Shown here in pieces: positions 3,546-13,886 of a DNA stretch of 64,000 bases. A program made the position numbers and the translations under genes. The notes below the pieces were generated by a model that had not been told where the DNA came from, did no database searches, and saw only the letters and a list, made by a program, of their open reading frames with translations. Position 1 is the first letter of the stretch. Each line of letters starts with the position of its first letter. The stretch comes from Chryseobacterium camelliae (GTDB lineage Bacteria > Bacteroidota > Bacteroidia > Flavobacteriales > Weeksellaceae): assembly GCF_027920545.1 (NCBI RefSeq), contig NZ_CP115859.1:248001-312000 (forward strand). Reading direction: 5' to 3'.

Positions 3546-5480
3546 ATGAAAAAAATCTCTCACTTAGTGAAAATGGCCGTATTGGCTTATTTTTTCTTAT
3601 TATTTCAAAACTTTTATGCTCAGGCACCCGATAAAATGAGCTATCAGGCAGTAGTAAGAAATGCAAGCAATGCTTTGATAACGAACCAGGCTATCGGAGT
3701 AAGAATAAGTATTTTAAGAACATCTCCAGCAGGAACAGAAATATACAAAGAAGTTTTCGCTCCTAATCCGACAACCAGCGCAAGTGGACTTTTGTCGTTG
3801 GAAATAGGTTCCGGAACACCGGTTACAGGTACTTTTGCAGCTATTGACTGGGCTCAGGGTCCTTATTTTGCTAAAGTGGAAATTGATCCTGCAGGAGGCA
3901 CAAACTATACACTTACTTCAAATTCTCAACTTTTAAGCGTGCCTTATGCGTTATTTGCTAAATCTACATCAGGAGTAAGCGGTACAGCCAATACAGTACC
4001 AAAATTTACTTCTGCCAATGCCATTGGTAATTCACAATTAACAGATGATGGAACAAGTGTGGGAGTAAATACGGGTACATTAAGTCCTAATATAAAATTT
4101 CAGGTCACCGCCGGTTCAATTGGTAATACAATCAGAGGAACTTTAATTGGAACTCCATCCACTTCTATTGCTACGGCCGGCTCTATCTATGGTGAATCAA
4201 CCACAGGAATCGGAGTGATTGGAGTGAGTGGTTCTCAAAACGGAGTGTATGGTTTATCCACCGGAACGTTAGGAGGCACAGTTGGGGTAAGTACAGGAAC
4301 CGGAAACGGAATCTGGGGAGTTGCAACCGGAGCGGGTGTTGCAGGTTTTTTTGACGGCGGAACAACAGGACGCGGAATTATTGTATCCACTGGAGCTTCA
4401 GGATTCGGAACAAGCACTCCTACGGGTAGACTTACAGTTATGCAACCAGCGACTCCACTTGCGGGAGTAGATGATTTCCCTGCTATATCAGGATATTCTT
4501 ATACAGTACAAGGAGCGCTTAAAGGTGGGGTTTATGGATATTATAACGGAAGCAACTACGGAACAGGTCTGCAAGGTACTGGTTACAATGGAGTAAATAA
4601 TACAGATGCCAATACAATTTTCGGTGTAGGAAATCAGGATTTGGGAGTTTATGGTTCTGCTAATACGGCAGGTGTAATGGGTGGTTCGATAGGAGGAATA
4701 GGAGTGGTGGGATATAATAAAAACGCATCTTTTGCAGCAACTACCGGTATTGGAAATACCTATGGAGTCTATGGAAATTCTCAAACTGTAGGTGGTGCTA
4801 CCGTTCCGAATGTACGTTACGGAGTCTATGGATTTGCTTCAGGTGCTACTACAAATTATGCGGGCTATTTCTCTGGAAACGTTAATGTTACAGGGTCTAT
4901 TTCCAAAGGAAGTGGAACCTTTAAAATCGATCACCCTGTTGACCCAGAAAATAAATATCTGTATCATAGTTTTGTTGAAAGTCCGGATATGATGAATGTA
5001 TATAATGGAAATATTGCGACTGATGCTAATGGCTATGCAACCGTAAAATTGCCAGGATATTTTGATGCATTAAACAAGGACTTCCGTTATCAGTTGACTG
5101 TAATAGGAACCTTTGCAAATGCTATTGTTTCTCAGGAAGTAAATAATAATACTTTTGTGATCAGAACAGATAAACCTTCAGTGAAAGTAAGCTGGCAGGT
5201 GACAGGAATAAGAAATGACGGTTATGCCAAAGCGCACCGCATTATTCCTGAAGTAGACAAAGAGCCGGAAATGAAAGGTAAATATCTACATCCTGTGGAA
5301 ATGGGTAAATCTCCACGCCTAGGCATTGACGAATATACCCGTCCTAAAGATCCTTCTGAAATCAAAAAAGATAAAGAAGTAAAAAGTAGTAGTGATGCAG
5401 AAAAATCGATTTCAATCCAGCAGAATAAAGATGAAATAGCGGGAGTACATATTAAAAATCAAACTGCAGAAAAACAGTAG
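3546..5480 (+). CDS. Large secreted glycine-rich protein with tail-fibre-like repeats
   Basis: 644 residues from the ATG at 3546, chosen because it begins a clean signal peptide (MKKISHLVKMAVLAYFFLLF...YAQ). A longer frame from 3477 would overlap the previous gene. Residues ~30-130 form a conserved N-terminal domain starting DKMSYQAVVRN, common in Bacteroidota surface proteins. Residues ~170-455 carry many GVYG/GVVG/GVMG turns, about every 15-25 residues, suggesting a beta-helical or trimeric fibre stalk. The conserved C-terminal block begins GTFKIDHPVDPENKYLYHSF. The last ~40 residues are charged and low in complexity. No T9SS tail is present. Surface adhesion or a fibre role is inference. 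Confidence 0.75.
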   Translation: MKKISHLVKMAVLAYFFLLFQNFYAQAPDKMSYQAVVRNASNALITNQAIGVRISILRTSPAGTEIYKEVFAPNPTTSASGLLSLEIGSGTPVTGTFAAIDWAQGPYFAKVEIDPAGGTNYTLTSNSQLLSVPYALFAKSTSGVSGTANTVPKFTSANAIGNSQLTDDGTSVGVNTGTLSPNIKFQVTAGSIGNTIRGTLIGTPSTSIATAGSIYGESTTGIGVIGVSGSQNGVYGLSTGTLGGTVGVSTGTGNGIWGVATGAGVAGFFDGGTTGRGIIVSTGASGFGTSTPTGRLTVMQPATPLAGVDDFPAISGYSYTVQGALKGGVYGYYNGSNYGTGLQGTGYNGVNNTDANTIFGVGNQDLGVYGSANTAGVMGGSIGGIGVVGYNKNASFAATTGIGNTYGVYGNSQTVGGATVPNVRYGVYGFASGATTNYAGYFSGNVNVTGSISKGSGTFKIDHPVDPENKYLYHSFVESPDMMNVYNGNIATDANGYATVKLPGYFDALNKDFRYQLTVIGTFANAIVSQEVNNNTFVIRTDKPSVKVSWQVTGIRNDGYAKAHRIIPEVDKEPEMKGKYLHPVEMGKSPRLGIDEYTRPKDPSEIKKDKEVKSSSDAEKSISIQQNKDEIAGVHIKNQTAEKQ

Positions 5481-5503
5481 TTTTCTTCATATTAATTTTT
5501 TTC

Positions 5504-5541
5504 AAAGAATCAGCTATTCAGATGGTATAGCTGATTCTTTT
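5504..5541 (+). terminator. Intrinsic terminator
   Basis: A stem of about 14 bp (AAAGAATCAGCTAT / ATAGCTGATTCTTT) with a 9-nt loop and T tail follows the tail-fibre-like gene. The remaining space to 5726 shows only a -7-like box. Confidence 0.8.
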
Positions 5542-5693
5542 ATATTTAAAAAAAGCGGATTATGAAGCTGAGCTTTTCAAAAAAGAAAAGAAACTGGAAT
5601 ATATCACTGTTTTTCAATAGGTAAGAGATTGATTCTATTAGCTGTTTTTAAGATTTCTAAGGAATAGGCAAGATTTAATTGTTTTATTTTGTA

Positions 5694-5701
5694 TATCTTT
5701 G
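5694..5701 (+). promoter_or_regulatory. Candidate -7 element
   Basis: TATCTTTG matches TAnnTTTG, 25 nt upstream of the CNNM/CBS gene. No TTG sits at the preferred 17-20 nt spacing, so support is partial. Confidence 0.4.
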
Positions 5702-5726
5702 TATTTAAATTTATATTAATTTCTAA

Positions 5727-7085
5727 ATGGATTCGGACATAGTCAGGCTTTTGTTGGCCTTATTACTTGTTTTACTTAATGGCTTTTTCGTAGCCGCAGA
5801 ATTTTCAATTGTTAAAGTTCGTTATTCACAAATACAGCTAAAAGCCGCAGAAGGTAACTCTATGGCAAAGCAGGCAGAGCATATCATCAAGCATCTTGAT
5901 GAGTATTTATCTGCAACGCAATTAGGAATTACACTGGCTTCCCTGGCTTTAGGTTGGGTAGGGGAAAGTGCTTTGCACCATATCGTAGCAAATATTTTTA
6001 ACTCTCTTAGCATTAATCTTAGCGAATCATCCATAACTTCGGTTTCATTGATAATTAGCTTTGTATTAATTACCATTATGCACATTGTCTTTGGGGAACT
6101 TATTCCTAAGTCAATTGCGATCAGAAAGTCGGAAGCGACAACAATGGCAACAGCAGTTCCTTTGAGAGTTTTCTATACCATCTTCAAACCGTTTATCTGG
6201 TTGATGAACTCTATGTCGAATGCTTTTTTAAGAATCGTAAAAATTCATCCGGCTTCGGAGCAGGAAATCCACTCTACGGAAGAATTGCAGCTTTTGGTAA
6301 AGCAAAGTGCCGATAGCGGAGAAATTGAGGAGGAGAACTATGAAATCATTAAGAACGCGTTTGATTTTACGGATCACTCTGCAAAACAGATTATGGTTCC
6401 CCGTCAGAATATAACTTCTATTGATTTTGAAGAAGATATCAACGAGATTATCAACAAAATTATGGACAGCGGGTATTCCCGTATTCCTGTTTATGAAGAT
6501 TCAATAGATAATGTGGTTGGTATTTTATATACAAAAGAAATCATCAGAGAATTTGTAAAAAGAAAAGGAGAGCTGAATCATGATGATTTAAAAGAACTGA
6601 TGCGTGATGCGTTCTTTGTGGTGGGAAGTAAGAAGATTTCAGATTTATTGAAAATTTTCCAGCAGAAGAAGCAGCATTTGGCAATCGTAATCGATGAATT
6701 CGGAGGAACGGAAGGAATTATTACTCTTGAAGATATTTTAGAGGAGCTTGTTGGAGAAATCCAGGATGAAGAGGATGACGAGGAAAAGATTGTCGATAAA
6801 ATCGGTGAAAATATTTATTGGGTTCAGGCAACTCAGCCATTGGATGAAATTAATGAGTTTTTACCTAAGAAATTACCTCTTTCAGAAGAAAGTGAATACA
6901 ATACATTAGCAGGATTTATTCTTCATGCGTTGGAGGATATTCCGGAGGAAAACCAGGAGTTCGACTTAGACAGCTATCATTTCAAAATTCTGAAAATGAA
7001 TAATAAAAGTGTCGAGCTTGTGGAATTGGTGTATGTACAGCCTAATAATACAAATGAATTGGCAGATAAATTAGGAGAAGTTTAA
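5727..7085 (+). CDS. Hemolysin-family CNNM/CBS/CorC membrane protein
   Basis: 452 residues. The N-terminal CNNM (DUF21) domain, about residues 1-190, has three or four hydrophobic segments, beginning LLLALLLVLLNGFFVAAEFS. A pair of CBS motifs follows at about 210-335 (IMVPRQNITSIDF..., GGTEGIITLEDILEELVGEI), then a CorC_HlyC domain to about residue 430. Family members are linked to Mg2+/Co2+ efflux, and the hemolysin name is historical. The fused architecture resembles GldE, but no gliding-gene context is seen, so that name is not used. clpS follows 11 nt later, possibly co-transcribed. Confidence 0.9.
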   Translation: MDSDIVRLLLALLLVLLNGFFVAAEFSIVKVRYSQIQLKAAEGNSMAKQAEHIIKHLDEYLSATQLGITLASLALGWVGESALHHIVANIFNSLSINLSESSITSVSLIISFVLITIMHIVFGELIPKSIAIRKSEATTMATAVPLRVFYTIFKPFIWLMNSMSNAFLRIVKIHPASEQEIHSTEELQLLVKQSADSGEIEEENYEIIKNAFDFTDHSAKQIMVPRQNITSIDFEEDINEIINKIMDSGYSRIPVYEDSIDNVVGILYTKEIIREFVKRKGELNHDDLKELMRDAFFVVGSKKISDLLKIFQQKKQHLAIVIDEFGGTEGIITLEDILEELVGEIQDEEDDEEKIVDKIGENIYWVQATQPLDEINEFLPKKLPLSEESEYNTLAGFILHALEDIPEENQEFDLDSYHFKILKMNNKSVELVELVYVQPNNTNELADKLGEV

Positions 7086-7402: not shown

Positions 7403-7433
7403 GATTTTTTTAATCTTTATTAATGATAAAATA

Positions 7434-7466
7434 AAAAGAGTTCAGGATTTCCTAAACTCTTTTTTA
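7434..7466 (+). terminator. Intrinsic terminator after clpS
   Basis: AGAGTTCAGG / CCTAAACTCT stem with one mismatch, a short loop, and a following T run. Confidence 0.7.
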
Positions 7467-7677: not shown

Positions 7678-9033
7678 TTACCAGTTTTTATCCACCATAT
7701 AAATAAGCTGGGTCATTACCGTAGCACCAAGAAGTAATTCTCTTCTGTTAACTTTCTCAAAAGTATCTTCTTCGGTATGGTGAATATCAAAATATCTCTG
7801 AGAATCCGGAACAAGCTCAGCAGTGGGAACTCCCATATCCCGAAGCGGGTAAATATCAGTTCCGGAATATTGATTTTCAAAATCATAAGCTCCGTAAGGA
7901 AGAAACAGGCTTTTCCAGCCTTGAATCTGTTTTCTTTTCGTTTCATCCATTTCCAGAGCAACTCCTCTCGGAGTAAATCCTCCTGCATCAGATTCTATGG
8001 CGAAAATGTGTTTTTCGTTGTTTTCTTTAGCTGTTTTACCATATTGTATTCCGCCTTTTACTCCATTTTCTTCGTTAGCGAAACAAACCACCCGAATCGT
8101 ATGATTATTTTGAATTCCCAATTTTTTGAATGTTCTCAACACTTCAATACTTTGAACAATTCCGGCTCCGTCATCATGAGCGCCCTCACCGACATCCCAG
8201 GAGTCTAAGTGCCCCCCCACAACGATTACATTTTGATCTTTTTTTCCTGTGATTTCACCAATAACAGAATGGGAGAGTCTTTCTCCTTTCATGCCACAGT
8301 TGGAGTTAAGTTTTGCCGTAACTTTTTGAGATTTCAAAAGCTTTTCAAGCTCATCGGCAACGGTATTTCCAATGGCAACCGCAGGAATTTTTTTATCATC
8401 CTGATAACGCATGGCTCCGGTATGCGGAACATCATCAAAAGCTGAGGAAAGAGATCTGATAATGGCAAATTTTCCGCCTTTTTTTGCTGTTAATGAAGCG
8501 GCTGTTGTTCTGTATTTTGCCGCATCACTATATCCTTTAAACGTTTCGATATAAGACTGACTAAACGGATAGTTGAAGAAAACAATTTTATCTTTTACCT
8601 TTTCTGCAGGTAGTTTTTCATACTCATCCATAGATTTTACCATGATAATTTCTCCCGAAATGTTTTTACCGCCTGTTCCTTCGGAATTTCCTAAAGAAAG
8701 CATTTTTAAGCTTTTCCATTTTCCCGCATCGGTTTTGATCTGTAAAGATTCTTTGCCTCTTTCCCAAACCGGAATCATGACCTCCTGTAACCAGACTTTA
8801 TCGGCTCCTGCATCACGAAGCTGTTGTGCAGCCCATTGAACGGATTTTTCATAAGCTGCAGAACCGCTCAGGCGATGTCCTATATTTTTAGTTAAATCTC
8901 TGAGTTCATTATAAGCTTTTCCGTTATTTAAAATTTCTGTTGAAATCTTACTGAATTGTATTGAATCTTCTTTGGTCTGTGCTACAGCGGCGAGATTCAA
9001 TACGATGCATATTGTTCCTAAAACTTTTTTCAT
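7678..9033 (-). CDS. Secreted M28-family zinc peptidase (active copy)
   Basis: 451 residues with a signal peptide (…LAAVAQ). Signs of an M28 aminopeptidase/carboxypeptidase: a PA-like insert at about 125-245, then a catalytic domain with H275 in GGHLDSWD, D287 in HDDGAG, catalytic base and ligand E321-E322 in ANEENG, D349 in ESDAGG and a final His near 418 in DIHHTEED. All five metal ligands and the base are present. It would cleave peptides in the periplasm or at the surface. It starts 1 nt after the stop of the upstream paralogue, so both are surely co-transcribed. Confidence 0.9.
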   Translation of the reverse strand: MKKVLGTICIVLNLAAVAQTKEDSIQFSKISTEILNNGKAYNELRDLTKNIGHRLSGSAAYEKSVQWAAQQLRDAGADKVWLQEVMIPVWERGKESLQIKTDAGKWKSLKMLSLGNSEGTGGKNISGEIIMVKSMDEYEKLPAEKVKDKIVFFNYPFSQSYIETFKGYSDAAKYRTTAASLTAKKGGKFAIIRSLSSAFDDVPHTGAMRYQDDKKIPAVAIGNTVADELEKLLKSQKVTAKLNSNCGMKGERLSHSVIGEITGKKDQNVIVVGGHLDSWDVGEGAHDDGAGIVQSIEVLRTFKKLGIQNNHTIRVVCFANEENGVKGGIQYGKTAKENNEKHIFAIESDAGGFTPRGVALEMDETKRKQIQGWKSLFLPYGAYDFENQYSGTDIYPLRDMGVPTAELVPDSQRYFDIHHTEEDTFEKVNRRELLLGATVMTQLIYMVDKNW

Positions 9034-9034
9034 T

Positions 9035-10432
9035 TTACCAGTTTTGATCGATCATAAGTACCATTTGTGTCATAACCACCGAACCTAAAAGGAGTTCACG
9101 TTTATTTACTTTATCATAAGTGTCCTGAACAGAGTGGTGGTAATCGAAATATCTTTGTGTGTCTACTACAAGCTCAGCCAGAGGAATATCCAGTTTTTTC
9201 AATGGAGAAATATCCTGAATCGCATCGGTCTGGTCAAAATCGTAAACACCGTAAGGAAGGAAGTAATTTTTCCATTCGAAAATCTGTCTTCTTCTTTGTG
9301 GCGACATATCCAATGAGAATCCTCTCGGAGAATATCCTCCTGCATCGGTTCCTAATGCAAAAATGTGCTTCTCATCCTTCTTTTTAACAGAAGAAGCATA
9401 CATTTCACGGCCTTGTCCGCCGTTTTCACTGTTAGCAAACAAAACCACTCTTATCGTATGGTTATTTTCATAGCCAAGAGCTTTCAATGTTCTTAAGACT
9501 TCGATACATTGTACAACACCGGTCCCGTCGTCAATAGCGCCTTCCCCAAAATCCCAGGAATCCAGCTGGGCACCTAAAAGAATTACCTTAGCATCTTTTT
9601 TACCGGGAATTTCAGCAATAATATTAGGATTAACAGTCTCACCTTTTGATTCGGCAGACATATTGATCTTTGCCGTAATTTTTTGCTTGCTTACTAATTT
9701 TTCAAGATCATCTGCAGATTTCGCACCGATTGACAAAGCCGGAATTCGGGCCTTATCATCCGGTTCATAATAGACCATTTTAGCGTGGGGAATATCGTTG
9801 TAAGCCGTGGTTAATGATCTTATGATTAAAGCCTTTGCTCCTGTTTTAGCAATTACAGAAGCTGAAATGAGTTTTGATTTTGCAGTAATTAAATAAGAAT
9901 CGCTGGTATTAACGATGGTTGGATCTAAAGGCAGGTTGACGAAGACAATTTTGTCTTTTAACTGTCCTAATGATAAAGAATTCAGCTCGGAAGTCGTATT
10001 AATTAAAACAATTTCACCGGTAAGATCTTTTCCTCCGGTTCCTTCAGAATTTCCGAAGGAAAGCATTTTAATACTTTTCCACTCGCCATTTCCTGTTTTT
10101 ATCTGCAGAGATTCCCTTCCCCTGATCCAGATCGGAGCTTTTGCATCCTGTTTCCAGATGGTTTCAATTCCGATTTCTTTAAACTGTTTTTCAGCCCAGT
10201 CAACCGCTTTTGCATATCCCGGAGTTGCGCTGAAACGTGATCCTATGCCTTTTGTAAGCTCACCCAAGTTATTATAGGCTGTTCCGTTGGTCAGAATCTC
10301 ATCCGAGATTCTTTTAAATTCAGTATGATAATTATATTTAGGAGTAGGAATTGTTTTTTTTACCTGCTTCTTTTGAGAAAATAAAAATCCACCCAAAAAG
10401 AGTGGAAATATGATAAGCAATGATTTCTTCAT
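9035..10432 (-). CDS. Secreted M28-family peptidase paralogue, probably inactive
   Basis: 465 residues with a signal peptide (…GGFLFSQ). It aligns along its length with the downstream M28 protein, sharing for example ESLQIKT, SFGNSEGTGGK and NNHTIRVV. Key catalytic positions differ: the first metal His is Gln289 (GAQLDSWD) and the general-base Glu is Ser335 (ANSENG). Asp301, Glu336, Asp363 and the final HH remain. From M28 chemistry, loss of one zinc ligand plus the base predicts a pseudopeptidase. A binding, chaperone or decoy role is conceivable but is inference. Confidence 0.85.
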   Translation of the reverse strand: MKKSLLIIFPLFLGGFLFSQKKQVKKTIPTPKYNYHTEFKRISDEILTNGTAYNNLGELTKGIGSRFSATPGYAKAVDWAEKQFKEIGIETIWKQDAKAPIWIRGRESLQIKTGNGEWKSIKMLSFGNSEGTGGKDLTGEIVLINTTSELNSLSLGQLKDKIVFVNLPLDPTIVNTSDSYLITAKSKLISASVIAKTGAKALIIRSLTTAYNDIPHAKMVYYEPDDKARIPALSIGAKSADDLEKLVSKQKITAKINMSAESKGETVNPNIIAEIPGKKDAKVILLGAQLDSWDFGEGAIDDGTGVVQCIEVLRTLKALGYENNHTIRVVLFANSENGGQGREMYASSVKKKDEKHIFALGTDAGGYSPRGFSLDMSPQRRRQIFEWKNYFLPYGVYDFDQTDAIQDISPLKKLDIPLAELVVDTQRYFDYHHSVQDTYDKVNKRELLLGSVVMTQMVLMIDQNW

Positions 10433-10486
10433 TTTTATACTGACCTTTTTCTTTTCAAAGCATAAAAATAAATAAAAAATTATGAA

Positions 10487-11731
10487 TTAAGGCTTCATAT
10501 CGTACATTAATAATGCAGTGATCAGTTTTGGTTCAATAAAAGTGCATTTTGGAGGCATGCTTAATTTAAGATCAGAAATTTTAATCATATCGTTGAAACT
10601 TACAGGATAGATCCCGAATCCGACTTTGCCTTCTCCGTTGTCAATATTTTCTTTGAGTAATTTAATTCCTTCAAGATTGGAAGTTCCTTTGATATAATTG
10701 ATTTTATCGGAGCTGTCAGAGTTTTCGATGTTAAGGATATCTTTAATAATATACTTATCCAAAAGGTGATGATCAAGATTTTCTAAAGACATTTCCTGAG
10801 AACGGAGATCATGCTTTACATGTAGGGAATAAAACTTCCCGTCAAGATACATCGAAATATGAAATTTCTGAGAAGGGTAGTACGGAGTTTCTCCTTTTTC
10901 GTGAATTAAAAAATACTTTTCGATTTTTGCCAAAAACTCTTCGCTGGTCAACCCGTTTAAATCACTGATAATTCTATTGTAATCGTGAATTTTTATAGAC
11001 TGGTTGGAAACAATAAAACTATAGACAAAATTATAAGTTTCGGTTCCGTTGTGTTTTTTGTTTTTATCTTTCAGGCGTTTTGCGTTCAATGCGGTAGATC
11101 CGATTCTGTGGTGTCCGTCTGCAATATAAAATGAATCTATCTGATCGATAACTTCCTTGAACTGCTGTAATTTTAAACGATTGTCAATCCTCCAGATTTT
11201 GTGACGTATTCCGATACTGTCTACATGATTGAAAATAGGAACATTTTTCTCCTCATGATTCATCAATAATTCTATTTTTGAATTAGAAGGATAGGTTAAC
11301 AATACCGGTTCTGCCTGGATGTTTACTTTTTCAAGGTAATGAGCCAGTTTTTCCTTTTTTTGTGGAATTGTACTTTCGTGCCTTTTAATTTTCCCGTTCC
11401 AGAAATCTTCAATGCTGCTTAAACCTAAAAGACCTCTGAATACCTGTTTGTTAGGGTAGATTTGTACATAAAGATAATAGGAAGAACTGTCCTGAACCAA
11501 TATTTTTTCATTCAGAAGCTCTTCGAAGGTAGTTCGGATTTTCCTTAGATTTCTGTCAACATCTTTAGATTTACTTACAACATATGGCTTTATCATATTG
11601 ATATAAGTATTTTCAACCTGTGCTTTTTCCGCAATTTCAGATTGGGTAAAATTGTCTAGAGGATGTGTAGGAAAAGTTGATTCATAATCTTTATGAGGTC
11701 TTATTCCACGAAAAGGTTTAAAAACAGGCAT
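10487..11731 (-). CDS. DUF1015 family protein
   Basis: 414 residues. It begins MPVFKPFRGIRPHKDY and contains IADGHHRIGSTAL near residue 200, the central motif of DUF1015, a soluble family of unknown chemistry. It ends 54 nt from the start of the M28 pair and begins 8 nt downstream of serA, so it is the third gene of a serC-serA-DUF1015 unit. That conserved position suggests a link to serine or phosphoserine metabolism, but no activity can be read from the sequence. Confidence 0.88.
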   Translation of the reverse strand: MPVFKPFRGIRPHKDYESTFPTHPLDNFTQSEIAEKAQVENTYINMIKPYVVSKSKDVDRNLRKIRTTFEELLNEKILVQDSSSYYLYVQIYPNKQVFRGLLGLSSIEDFWNGKIKRHESTIPQKKEKLAHYLEKVNIQAEPVLLTYPSNSKIELLMNHEEKNVPIFNHVDSIGIRHKIWRIDNRLKLQQFKEVIDQIDSFYIADGHHRIGSTALNAKRLKDKNKKHNGTETYNFVYSFIVSNQSIKIHDYNRIISDLNGLTSEEFLAKIEKYFLIHEKGETPYYPSQKFHISMYLDGKFYSLHVKHDLRSQEMSLENLDHHLLDKYIIKDILNIENSDSSDKINYIKGTSNLEGIKLLKENIDNGEGKVGFGIYPVSFNDMIKISDLKLSMPPKCTFIEPKLITALLMYDMKP

Positions 11732-11739
11732 ATTTTCTT

Positions 11740-12699
11740 TTATAGTTCGTTTTTTAACTTAATAATTTGTTCTGCAAGCTCAAGTCCTATTTTTTCCTGA
11801 GCATCCACTGTATTTCCACCTACGTGAGGAGACAGTGATAGAGCAGGGTTCATCAATAAAGGCAGTTCAGGATTGGGTTCGTTTTCAAAAACATCCAAAG
11901 CTGCTCCGGCTACTTTTCCGGACTCAATAAAGTCGATGAGTGTCACTTCATTAAGTACTCCGCCTCTTGCAGTATTCACAATATAAACACCGTCTTTCAT
12001 TTTTTCAAATTGAGGCGTGTCTATAATATATTCGTTCGTTTTAGGAGTATTGATACTGATAAAATCCGCTTCTTTCAGGAATGCATTCATATCATTATCA
12101 GAAGTGATTTCGAACTTAACACTTTGTCCGTCGAAAAATTCTAAAGTAAGCACTTCCGTTTTAGGTTTTCTGGTTAAAACTTTAACCTTCATTCCTAAAG
12201 AAATTCCTATTTTCACTACTTCCTGACCAATACTTCCGAAGCCAATAACTCCTAATGTTTTCCCTGAAAGTTCATAGGCATTACTGAACGATTTTTTCAT
12301 GGCGTTGAAGTGAGTGTCTCCTTCCAAAGGCATCAACCTGTTGGATTCGTGAAGAAATCTTGCCAGAGAAAAGAAATGCCCGAAAACCAATTCTGCAACC
12401 GATTTTGAGGATGCGGTCGGTGTATTGATAATGTATTTTCCCTTTTCAATAGCATGTTCAACGTCAATATTATCCATTCCGATGCCGCCTCTTCCGATGA
12501 TTTTCAGATTCGGACAAGCATCAATAAGATCTTGCCTTACTTTCGTCGCACTTCTTACCAAAAGCACATCTACATTATTCTCGTTGATGAAGCTGATTAC
12601 ATGGTCTTGTGCAACCCTGTTGTCTAATACTTCAATTCCTGCATTTTTCAATGCCTGTTCGCCTGCTTTCGAAATTCCGTCGTTAGCTAAAACTTTCAT
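11740..12699 (-). CDS. serA: D-3-phosphoglycerate dehydrogenase (short form)
   Basis: 319 residues. It oxidises 3-phosphoglycerate to 3-phosphohydroxypyruvate, the first step of serine synthesis. The Rossmann motif GFGSIG is at 153-158, a catalytic Arg lies in NTARGGVLNE and a catalytic His in LSPHVGGNT near residue 292. It has no C-terminal ACT domain, so allosteric serine feedback of the E. coli type is not expected. The partner serC lies 122 nt upstream and DUF1015 8 nt downstream. Confidence 0.92.
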   Translation of the reverse strand: MKVLANDGISKAGEQALKNAGIEVLDNRVAQDHVISFINENNVDVLLVRSATKVRQDLIDACPNLKIIGRGGIGMDNIDVEHAIEKGKYIINTPTASSKSVAELVFGHFFSLARFLHESNRLMPLEGDTHFNAMKKSFSNAYELSGKTLGVIGFGSIGQEVVKIGISLGMKVKVLTRKPKTEVLTLEFFDGQSVKFEITSDNDMNAFLKEADFISINTPKTNEYIIDTPQFEKMKDGVYIVNTARGGVLNEVTLIDFIESGKVAGAALDVFENEPNPELPLLMNPALSLSPHVGGNTVDAQEKIGLELAEQIIKLKNEL

Positions 12700-12821
12700 G
12701 GTTTTTATTTTAATTTAAATATTCAATTGGTGAATTATTAAAATTTAAATAGTTGCGCAAATTAAGAAAATTTAAAATAATACTCAATTGTTGTTTAAAT
12801 ATCTGAATTTTAGTTCTTTAC

Positions 12822-13886
12822 TTATTTTATAGATCTCATTACATCTACTAAAACCTGTACGCTTTCAATAGGTAAAGCATTGTATAAACTAGCTCTGTAA
12901 CCGCCCAGACTTCTGTGTCCGTTTAATCCGCTGATTCCTGCAGCTTTCCATGCATTATCAAATGCTTCTTTTTTGCTTTCGTCCGTAATTTTGAAAGATA
13001 CATTCATTAATGAACGGTCTTCTTTTACACAGAACGTTTCAAATAAAGGATTGTTGTCTATTTCGTCGTATAAAAGTTTTGCTTTTGCTTCGTTTCTTGC
13101 TTCAGCTGCTGCAATTCCTCCATTGTTTTCCAAATATTGTAAGGTAAGCAAAGATGCATAAACAGGGAACACCGGTGGTGTATTGTACATAGATTCTTTA
13201 GCGATATGCTGAGAATAATCCAGGATTGAGAACATATTGTCTCTTCCGGTCTTACCTAAGATTTCTTTTTTCACGACTACTAAAGTTACTCCTGCAGGTC
13301 CCATATTTTTCTGAGCTCCGGCGTAGATCAAATCGAATTTGGAGAAGTCCAGCTGTCTTGAAAAAATATCCGAACTCATATCGCAAACCATTAACGTATC
13401 AACTTCAGGGAAAGATTTCATCTGAGTTCCGTAGATCGTATTGTTGGAAGTACAGTGAAAATAATCGTATTCTGAACCTACCGTATAGTTTTTCGGAATG
13501 AAAGAGTAGTTCTCTTCTTTTGAAGAACCTACAACGTCTACTGTTCCTACTTTTTTTGCTTCTTTTATAGCTCCTGCAGCCCAGGTTCCCGTATCAAGAT
13601 AAGCTGCTTTTCCGCCCACTTTCATCAAATTGTAAGGGACCATTGCAAATTGCAGACTGGCACCGCCCCCTAAATATAAAACTTCGTAATCATCACCCAA
13701 ATTCATCAATCTTTTTACGATGGCACGAGCTTCGTCCATTACGGCAACGAAATCTTTGCTTCTGTGCGAAATTTCAAGAAGTGACAATCCGATTCCATTG
13801 AAATCTAAAATCGCCTGTGCCGATTTTTCGAAAACTTCCTGAGGTAAGATACATGGTCCCGCGCTAAAGTTGTGCTTTTTGCTCAT
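12822..13886 (-). CDS. serC: Phosphoserine aminotransferase
   Basis: 354 residues, full length for the family. It is a PLP enzyme converting 3-phosphohydroxypyruvate and glutamate to phosphoserine, and it also serves PLP synthesis in some bacteria. The N-terminus HNFSAGPCILPQEV and the PLP lysine K193 in AGAQKNMGPAG are diagnostic. It is first gene of the serC-serA-DUF1015 group on the minus strand. The gene for the last step (serB) is not in this window. Confidence 0.95.
   Translation of the reverse strand: MSKKHNFSAGPCILPQEVFEKSAQAILDFNGIGLSLLEISHRSKDFVAVMDEARAIVKRLMNLGDDYEVLYLGGGASLQFAMVPYNLMKVGGKAAYLDTGTWAAGAIKEAKKVGTVDVVGSSKEENYSFIPKNYTVGSEYDYFHCTSNNTIYGTQMKSFPEVDTLMVCDMSSDIFSRQLDFSKFDLIYAGAQKNMGPAGVTLVVVKKEILGKTGRDNMFSILDYSQHIAKESMYNTPPVFPVYASLLTLQYLENNGGIAAAEARNEAKAKLLYDEIDNNPLFETFCVKEDRSLMNVSFKITDESKKEAFDNAWKAAGISGLNGHRSLGGYRASLYNALPIESVQVLVDVMRSIK

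Follow-up and report, generated by a model that had tools for sequence, protein, structure and literature searches.

The locus described here raises the question whether a peptidase homologue that has lost catalytic residues serves the active copy encoded next to it or has a function of its own. The window is a stretch of 64,000 nucleotides (nt) of Chryseobacterium camelliae (NZ_CP115859.1, assembly GCF_027920545.1, positions 248,001–312,000), and all coordinates below are relative to it. It contains two tandem M28 genes:

9035..10432, minus strand: upstream M28 (carboxypeptidase-Q-type) gene, encoding a pseudopeptidase of 465 aa (open reading frame and Pfam)
7678..9033, minus strand: downstream M28 paralogue, 451 aa, with the complete catalytic set H275, D287, E321, E322, D349 and H419

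An initial annotation had described the upstream product as a retained, inactive paralogue that might be a heterodimer partner or regulator of the downstream peptidase. The gene positions and the 1-nt spacing given there agree with the open reading frames and with the junction, which reads TAA, a single A, ATG, and all six catalytic residues ascribed to the downstream copy were found. The two proteins are 53% identical across 428 columns, and a protein search of the C. camelliae genome yields only these two M28 copies. Both were assigned to PF04389, the upstream protein scoring 75.9 bits against a curated cut-off of 21.3, and the upstream protein is predicted to have the M28 fold. The nearest PDB sequence for both is 3iib, the M28 peptidase of Shewanella amazonensis.

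Catalytic site of the upstream copy

The following positions of the upstream gene are relevant to catalysis or are invariant in active relatives:

9566..9568, minus strand: Gln289, codon CAG, replacing the first metal His (codon and 3iib alignment; 170/170 genus copies)
9428..9430, minus strand: Ser335, codon AGT, replacing the general-base Glu (codon and 3iib alignment; 170/170 genus copies)
9530..9532, minus strand: Asp301, bridging metal ligand, kept (alignment)
9425..9427, minus strand: Glu336, metal ligand, kept (alignment)
9344..9346, minus strand: Asp363, metal ligand, kept (alignment)
9134..9136, minus strand: His433, metal ligand, kept (alignment)
9350..9352, minus strand: Gly361 for a Glu invariant across active groups (in the genus, Gly in 169/170 and Glu in 1/170)
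9779..9784, minus strand: Ala217-Lys218 for the Thr-Gly that is invariant in the HTG motif of active copies
9872..9874, minus strand: Lys187 for an Arg invariant in active groups (in the genus, Lys in 167/170 and Arg in 3/170)

In the alignment with 3iib, residues Q289, D301, S335, E336, D363 and H433 fall on the family His, Asp, Glu, Glu, Asp and His, respectively. The codons of the two substitutions proposed in the initial annotation were confirmed, and the alignment places them at the family His and the first Glu. The five metal ligands H-D-E-D-H of the family read Q-D-E-D-H in all 170 upstream copies of the genus, and the general-base Glu is Ser in all of them. Human GCPII binds its metals through His377, Asp387, Glu425, Asp453 and His553, with Glu424 as catalytic residue (PMC8538779); judging by the motif, Q289 and S335 would match His377 and Glu424. 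Replacement of Glu by Ser (GAA or GAG to AGT or AGC) takes three base changes and hence did not arise by one slip.

The rest of the site had been described as kept, which holds for the ligands D301, E336, D363 and H433 and fails at R187K, T217A, G218K and E361G. Among 42 positions with at least 95% invariance in each of four active groups, the pseudopeptidases retain 36 (at 99% or more) and differ at six (these four, H289Q and E335S), the new residues being 98–100% conserved. Further, 19 positions are conserved both in the pseudopeptidases and in the active upstream orthologues, yet with different residues (thresholds 97% and 90%). For the residue comparisons, 170 rows with Gln and Ser were used, one per genome, with the window counted once and C. 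defluvii represented by locus L161; the 47 rows of active upstream orthologues include near-duplicates.

Distribution and origin of the substitutions

M28 matches were found in 172 of the 173 searched genomes of the genus Chryseobacterium, and the upstream copy was read in 170. All 170 carry the pattern QDSEDH, that is, Gln and Ser with the other four metal ligands kept, so the conservation of the two substitutions across the genus, which the initial annotation had proposed to check, is complete among intact copies. The remaining three genomes are G284, G063 and G289. In G284 (G284:C114:142226-143622) the upstream copy is split by a frameshift and two downstream-type copies have open frames; G063 is a 75% complete assembly that breaks across the M28 locus; in G289, whose assembly is 73% complete, no M28 match was found. 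In the 57 named loci the upstream copy reads QDSEDH in every case, and the downstream copies read HDEEDH, except the one in L082, which is cut before the last residue. Among the matches listed, 224 proteins with the window's two included, 181 are QDSEDH and 43 are HDEEDH. No intermediate with a single substitution was seen among these proteins, in the 170 genus genomes or in the fetched loci of the family.

The downstream-type copy varies in number. In 116 genomes with loci longer than 6 kb, the pseudopeptidase is accompanied by two active copies in 58, by one in 46 and by none nearby in nine, the other three being of other types. In 29 of the 57 named loci (e.g. L037 and L048) the pseudopeptidase is followed by two active copies in tandem. 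Where sampled, in three genomes, the first of these two forms its own branch (support 100/93) among the active copies of the genus.

The search of the family covered 148 genomes, 128 of them from other genera; ten other-genus genomes with matches of at most 54% identity were left out of the fetched loci. An upstream-type orthologue was found in 13 of the 128 (loci L115–L127) and reads HDEEDH in all 13; in L116 and L117 the same tandem is present with both copies intact. The active form is thus patchy outside the genus and the inactive form nearly universal inside it. Orthologues with His and Glu in place, which the initial annotation had named as speaking against its proposal should they prevail, are seen only outside the genus.

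A careful phylogenetic tree was built, without the six diagnostic columns, from 76 of the 96 rows of a quick tree. The Gln/Ser copies form one clade (100/100) with a stem branch of 0.30, whose sister group consists of the active upstream orthologues (joint clade 100/99), and the active copies of the genus form a separate group (100/100). From this topology, the two paralogues are older than the genus, and the loss was a single event on the genus stem. Since the orthologues elsewhere are HDEEDH, no intermediate was seen and the Gln/Ser copies form one clade, the losses of both His and Glu are dated to that stem. An additional Gln/Ser copy, in Chryseobacterium defluvii (L161 in G072, containing P0224), lacks the usual neighbours and keeps Glu361. 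An order of substitutions based on this copy was dropped, given that the quick tree puts the copy in a basal position and the careful one does not (support 55/76).

Two loci of other genera show further changes. In L139 (G233, 5014-6400) a downstream-type copy reads HDEEEH, with Glu replacing an Asp metal ligand, and in L130 (G226, 4828-5152) a 108-residue M28 remnant, apparently a decayed copy, occupies the slot behind the neighbouring genes serC, serA and DUF1015 described below.

Selective constraint and persistence without the active copy

The nearest-neighbour ratio of nonsynonymous to synonymous substitution rates (dN/dS) has a median of 0.031 in 159 pseudopeptidase genomes and of 0.042 in active copies (100 of 202 rows used). 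The median dS of the 159 comparisons is 0.6, and the 71 comparisons with dS below 0.5 give a dN/dS of 0.030. The pseudopeptidase is constrained as tightly as the active copy. The retention without decay that the initial annotation had asserted is therefore strongly supported by this median and by the Gln/Ser pair in 170 of 170 copies. Passive retention or slow decay of a duplicate, of which the frameshifted copy of G284 could be an example, is very improbable: the gene is intact in 170 of 173 genomes, its dN/dS of about 0.03 is no looser than that of the active copy, and it is the active copy, not the inactive one, that is more often missing.

An active-type copy is present in the fetched loci of 157 of the 170 genomes, with the full HDEEDH in view in 145 of these; in G021 and G259 a second match was left unread, and the other 11 genomes (G035, G053, G060, G067, G079, G088, G235, G239, G276, G277 and G291) have the pseudopeptidase as their single match. 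The 11 assemblies are all 99–100% complete, and those of G035, G060, G079, G235 and G291 consist of one to three contigs. A search of the 11 genomes with the active protein returned only the same locus and short matches with E-values of 1e-4 or weaker. Seven of them were read with longer flanks: the usual preceding genes serC, serA and DUF1015 are present, and no M28 gene follows the pseudopeptidase. On the tree of 170 copies the absence of the active copy requires a minimum of five changes, four of them forced by well-supported branches, which corresponds to about 4–5 separate losses. Of the 173 genomes, at most three lack an intact inactive copy and at least 11 lack the active one, which is where the analysis departs most from the initial annotation.

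Constraint continues in the absence of the active copy. In the 11 genomes the median dN/dS of the pseudopeptidase is 0.027 (range 0.017–0.093); comparisons where both genomes lack the active copy give 0.017–0.043, and the closest of them, G239 with G276 (dS 0.17), gives 0.026.

These observations bear on the partnership suggested in the initial annotation. In such a partnership the upstream protein could form a heterodimer with the downstream peptidase or regulate it allosterically, similarly to the active and inactive pairs of the M16 family. The genes are in tandem with the inactive one first, and the estimated gap is at most 20 nt in 118 of 150 measured genomes (gap lengths rest on a rough choice of start codons), which makes co-expression of the two copies plausible. 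M16 pseudopeptidase subunits encoded in two-gene operons provide a precedent (PMC11266112). However, the gap exceeds 200 nt in 28 of the 150 genomes, and, while adjacent genes are shared with the M16 arrangement, the constant company of an active subunit is not: at least 11 of 173 genomes keep the pseudopeptidase, under continuing constraint, with no active carboxypeptidase-Q-type copy found. Partnership is consequently not a general explanation, and we regard it as unlikely. A facultative partner role may exist where both copies occur.

Proposed function, gene neighbourhood and known systems

We propose, with a probability of roughly 60%, that the upstream gene encodes a secreted carboxypeptidase-Q-type M28 protein that lost its conventional peptidase role before the genus diversified and took on a new function independent of its active sister. 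After the loss of two catalytic residues the upstream copy probably has a function of its own. Sequence comparison shows two paralogous clades, both intact in other genera and in tandem in some. On the genus stem, Gln took the place of the first zinc His and Ser that of the general-base Glu in the upstream copy, along with further fixed changes, and the copy has remained tightly conserved. The two residues suggest that conventional peptidase chemistry is lost, and the invariant ligands, with the Asp301/Glu336/His433 site complete, suggest that the predicted fold and at least one metal are retained. A signal peptide, as read from the sequence, would direct the protein out of the cytoplasm:

10373..10432, minus strand: signal-peptide-like N-terminus of the upstream protein, residues 1–20, without a lipobox Cys (read from sequence)

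In the AlphaFold model the predicted local distance difference test (pLDDT) is below 50 at residues 1–30. In the periplasm the altered pocket may bind a small peptide or amino-acid ligand uncut, as a binding protein or sensor. Because of the conservation and the 11 genomes without the active copy, such a binding role would be independent of that copy; where both occur, the pseudopeptidase may act beside it without depending on it.

Several observations weigh against this proposal. The fixed differences show no significant clustering along the sequence near the catalytic residues (10/54 positions near versus 9/101 far, p = 0.07; p = 0.17 once the two defining sites are removed). The contig of G053 ends about 1.2 kb past the gene, and the absence of the active copy there leans on assembly completeness. 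Values of dN/dS above 0.06 occur in three of the 11 genomes without the active copy (G277, G053 and G067; up to 0.093) and also in 13 of the 159 other pseudopeptidase genomes, and dS is above 1 in 28 of the 159 comparisons and in 6 of the 11; the high values of G277, G053 and G067 may be due to mild relaxation or to saturation of dS. Finally, loss of the general base need not abolish activity: the Glu424Gln mutant of GCPII has only an 8-fold lower Vmax, the Glu424Ala mutant being inactive (PMC8538779), and the structure 2anp of the Glu151His mutant of Aeromonas aminopeptidase is titled "functional".

The residual activity of Glu424Gln reported in the cited passages (PMC8538779) also favors the view that the protein is still an enzyme, namely a single-metal hydrolase or transferase of altered chemistry or specificity that uses the kept ligands and the new Gln, Ser and Lys. 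In line with it, every one of the 170 copies retains the other four metal ligands, and six otherwise universal positions carry new fixed residues. Nevertheless, the general base and one metal His are both lost and no replacement base is evident. We know of no relative with such chemistry, although no search was aimed at one, and consider this option somewhat less likely than even partnership with the downstream copy.

The genes preceding the pair are conserved as well, and a hairpin lies behind it:

10487..11731, minus strand: DUF1015 gene, conserved neighbour on the upstream side of the M28 locus
11740..12699, minus strand: serA-like 2-hydroxyacid/phosphoglycerate dehydrogenase gene, conserved neighbour, below the NCBIfam equivalog cut-off
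12822..13886, minus strand: serC, phosphoserine transaminase, conserved neighbour
7433..7464, minus strand: terminator-like hairpin 3' of the M28 pair (consensus match only)

The order serC-serA-DUF1015 precedes M28 in 169 of 170 genus copies, once with a gap above 1 kb; the exception is G259. In other genera the same slot holds the upstream-type orthologue in 13 of 13 loci, and the downstream-type active copy occupies it in 19 of 27 other loci (L128–L154). The arrangement seen at 7678-13886 of the window is conserved through much of the family and ties a slot for a secreted peptidase to serine biosynthesis. The DUF1015 protein has no PDB relative by sequence and no NCBIfam family; DUF1015 proteins may be serine kinases. 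The neighbourhood is a lead on the function of the pseudopeptidase, not evidence for it. A bolder version of our proposal is tentative: at the root of the genus a bacterial M28 scaffold would have become a non-peptidase that still holds a metal and has a new function of its own (sensing of a ligand or a new chemistry), which gene order connects with serine biosynthesis, and this protein would have become harder to dispense with than the active sister copy.

Peptidase families are known to include members that are not peptidases. Searches of open-licence literature, which lacks most subscription papers, turned up no publication on this protein and no genus-wide bacterial M28 pseudopeptidase persisting without an active partner. 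The term "M28" is absent from the main text available for a 2024 review of pseudo-metallopeptidases, and no M28 entry is in its Table 1 passage (PMC11266112). The present case is bacterial, spans a whole genus, has active orthologues in neighbouring genera and includes natural species without the active partner. It offers a clean natural experiment on how a non-enzymatic role arises in an enzyme fold, and on whether pseudoenzymes must serve active relatives.

Compared with carboxypeptidase-Q-type M28 peptidases (3iib; PF04389), the upstream copy has Gln for the first zinc His and Ser for the general-base Glu, and is also replaced at R187, T217, G218 and E361. Transferrin receptor 1, an animal receptor and non-enzymatic relative from the M28B branch, shares only the fold (15% identity), and the Chryseobacterium pseudopeptidase differs from it in keeping all metal ligands but one. 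The same two exchanges, of the first zinc His for Gln and of the catalytic Glu for Ser, are listed for ADAM22, ADAM23 and unc-71 of M12 (PMC11266112, Table 2); these belong to a different peptidase family, and the likeness is convergent. The closest parallel in gene arrangement is provided by MPP alpha and the bacterial M16 heterosubunit peptidases, which combine active and inactive homologues, encoded in prokaryotes by a two-gene operon (PMC11266112). In MPP, however, the inactive subunit is essential to the enzyme, whereas the inactive copy of Chryseobacterium persists without the active one.
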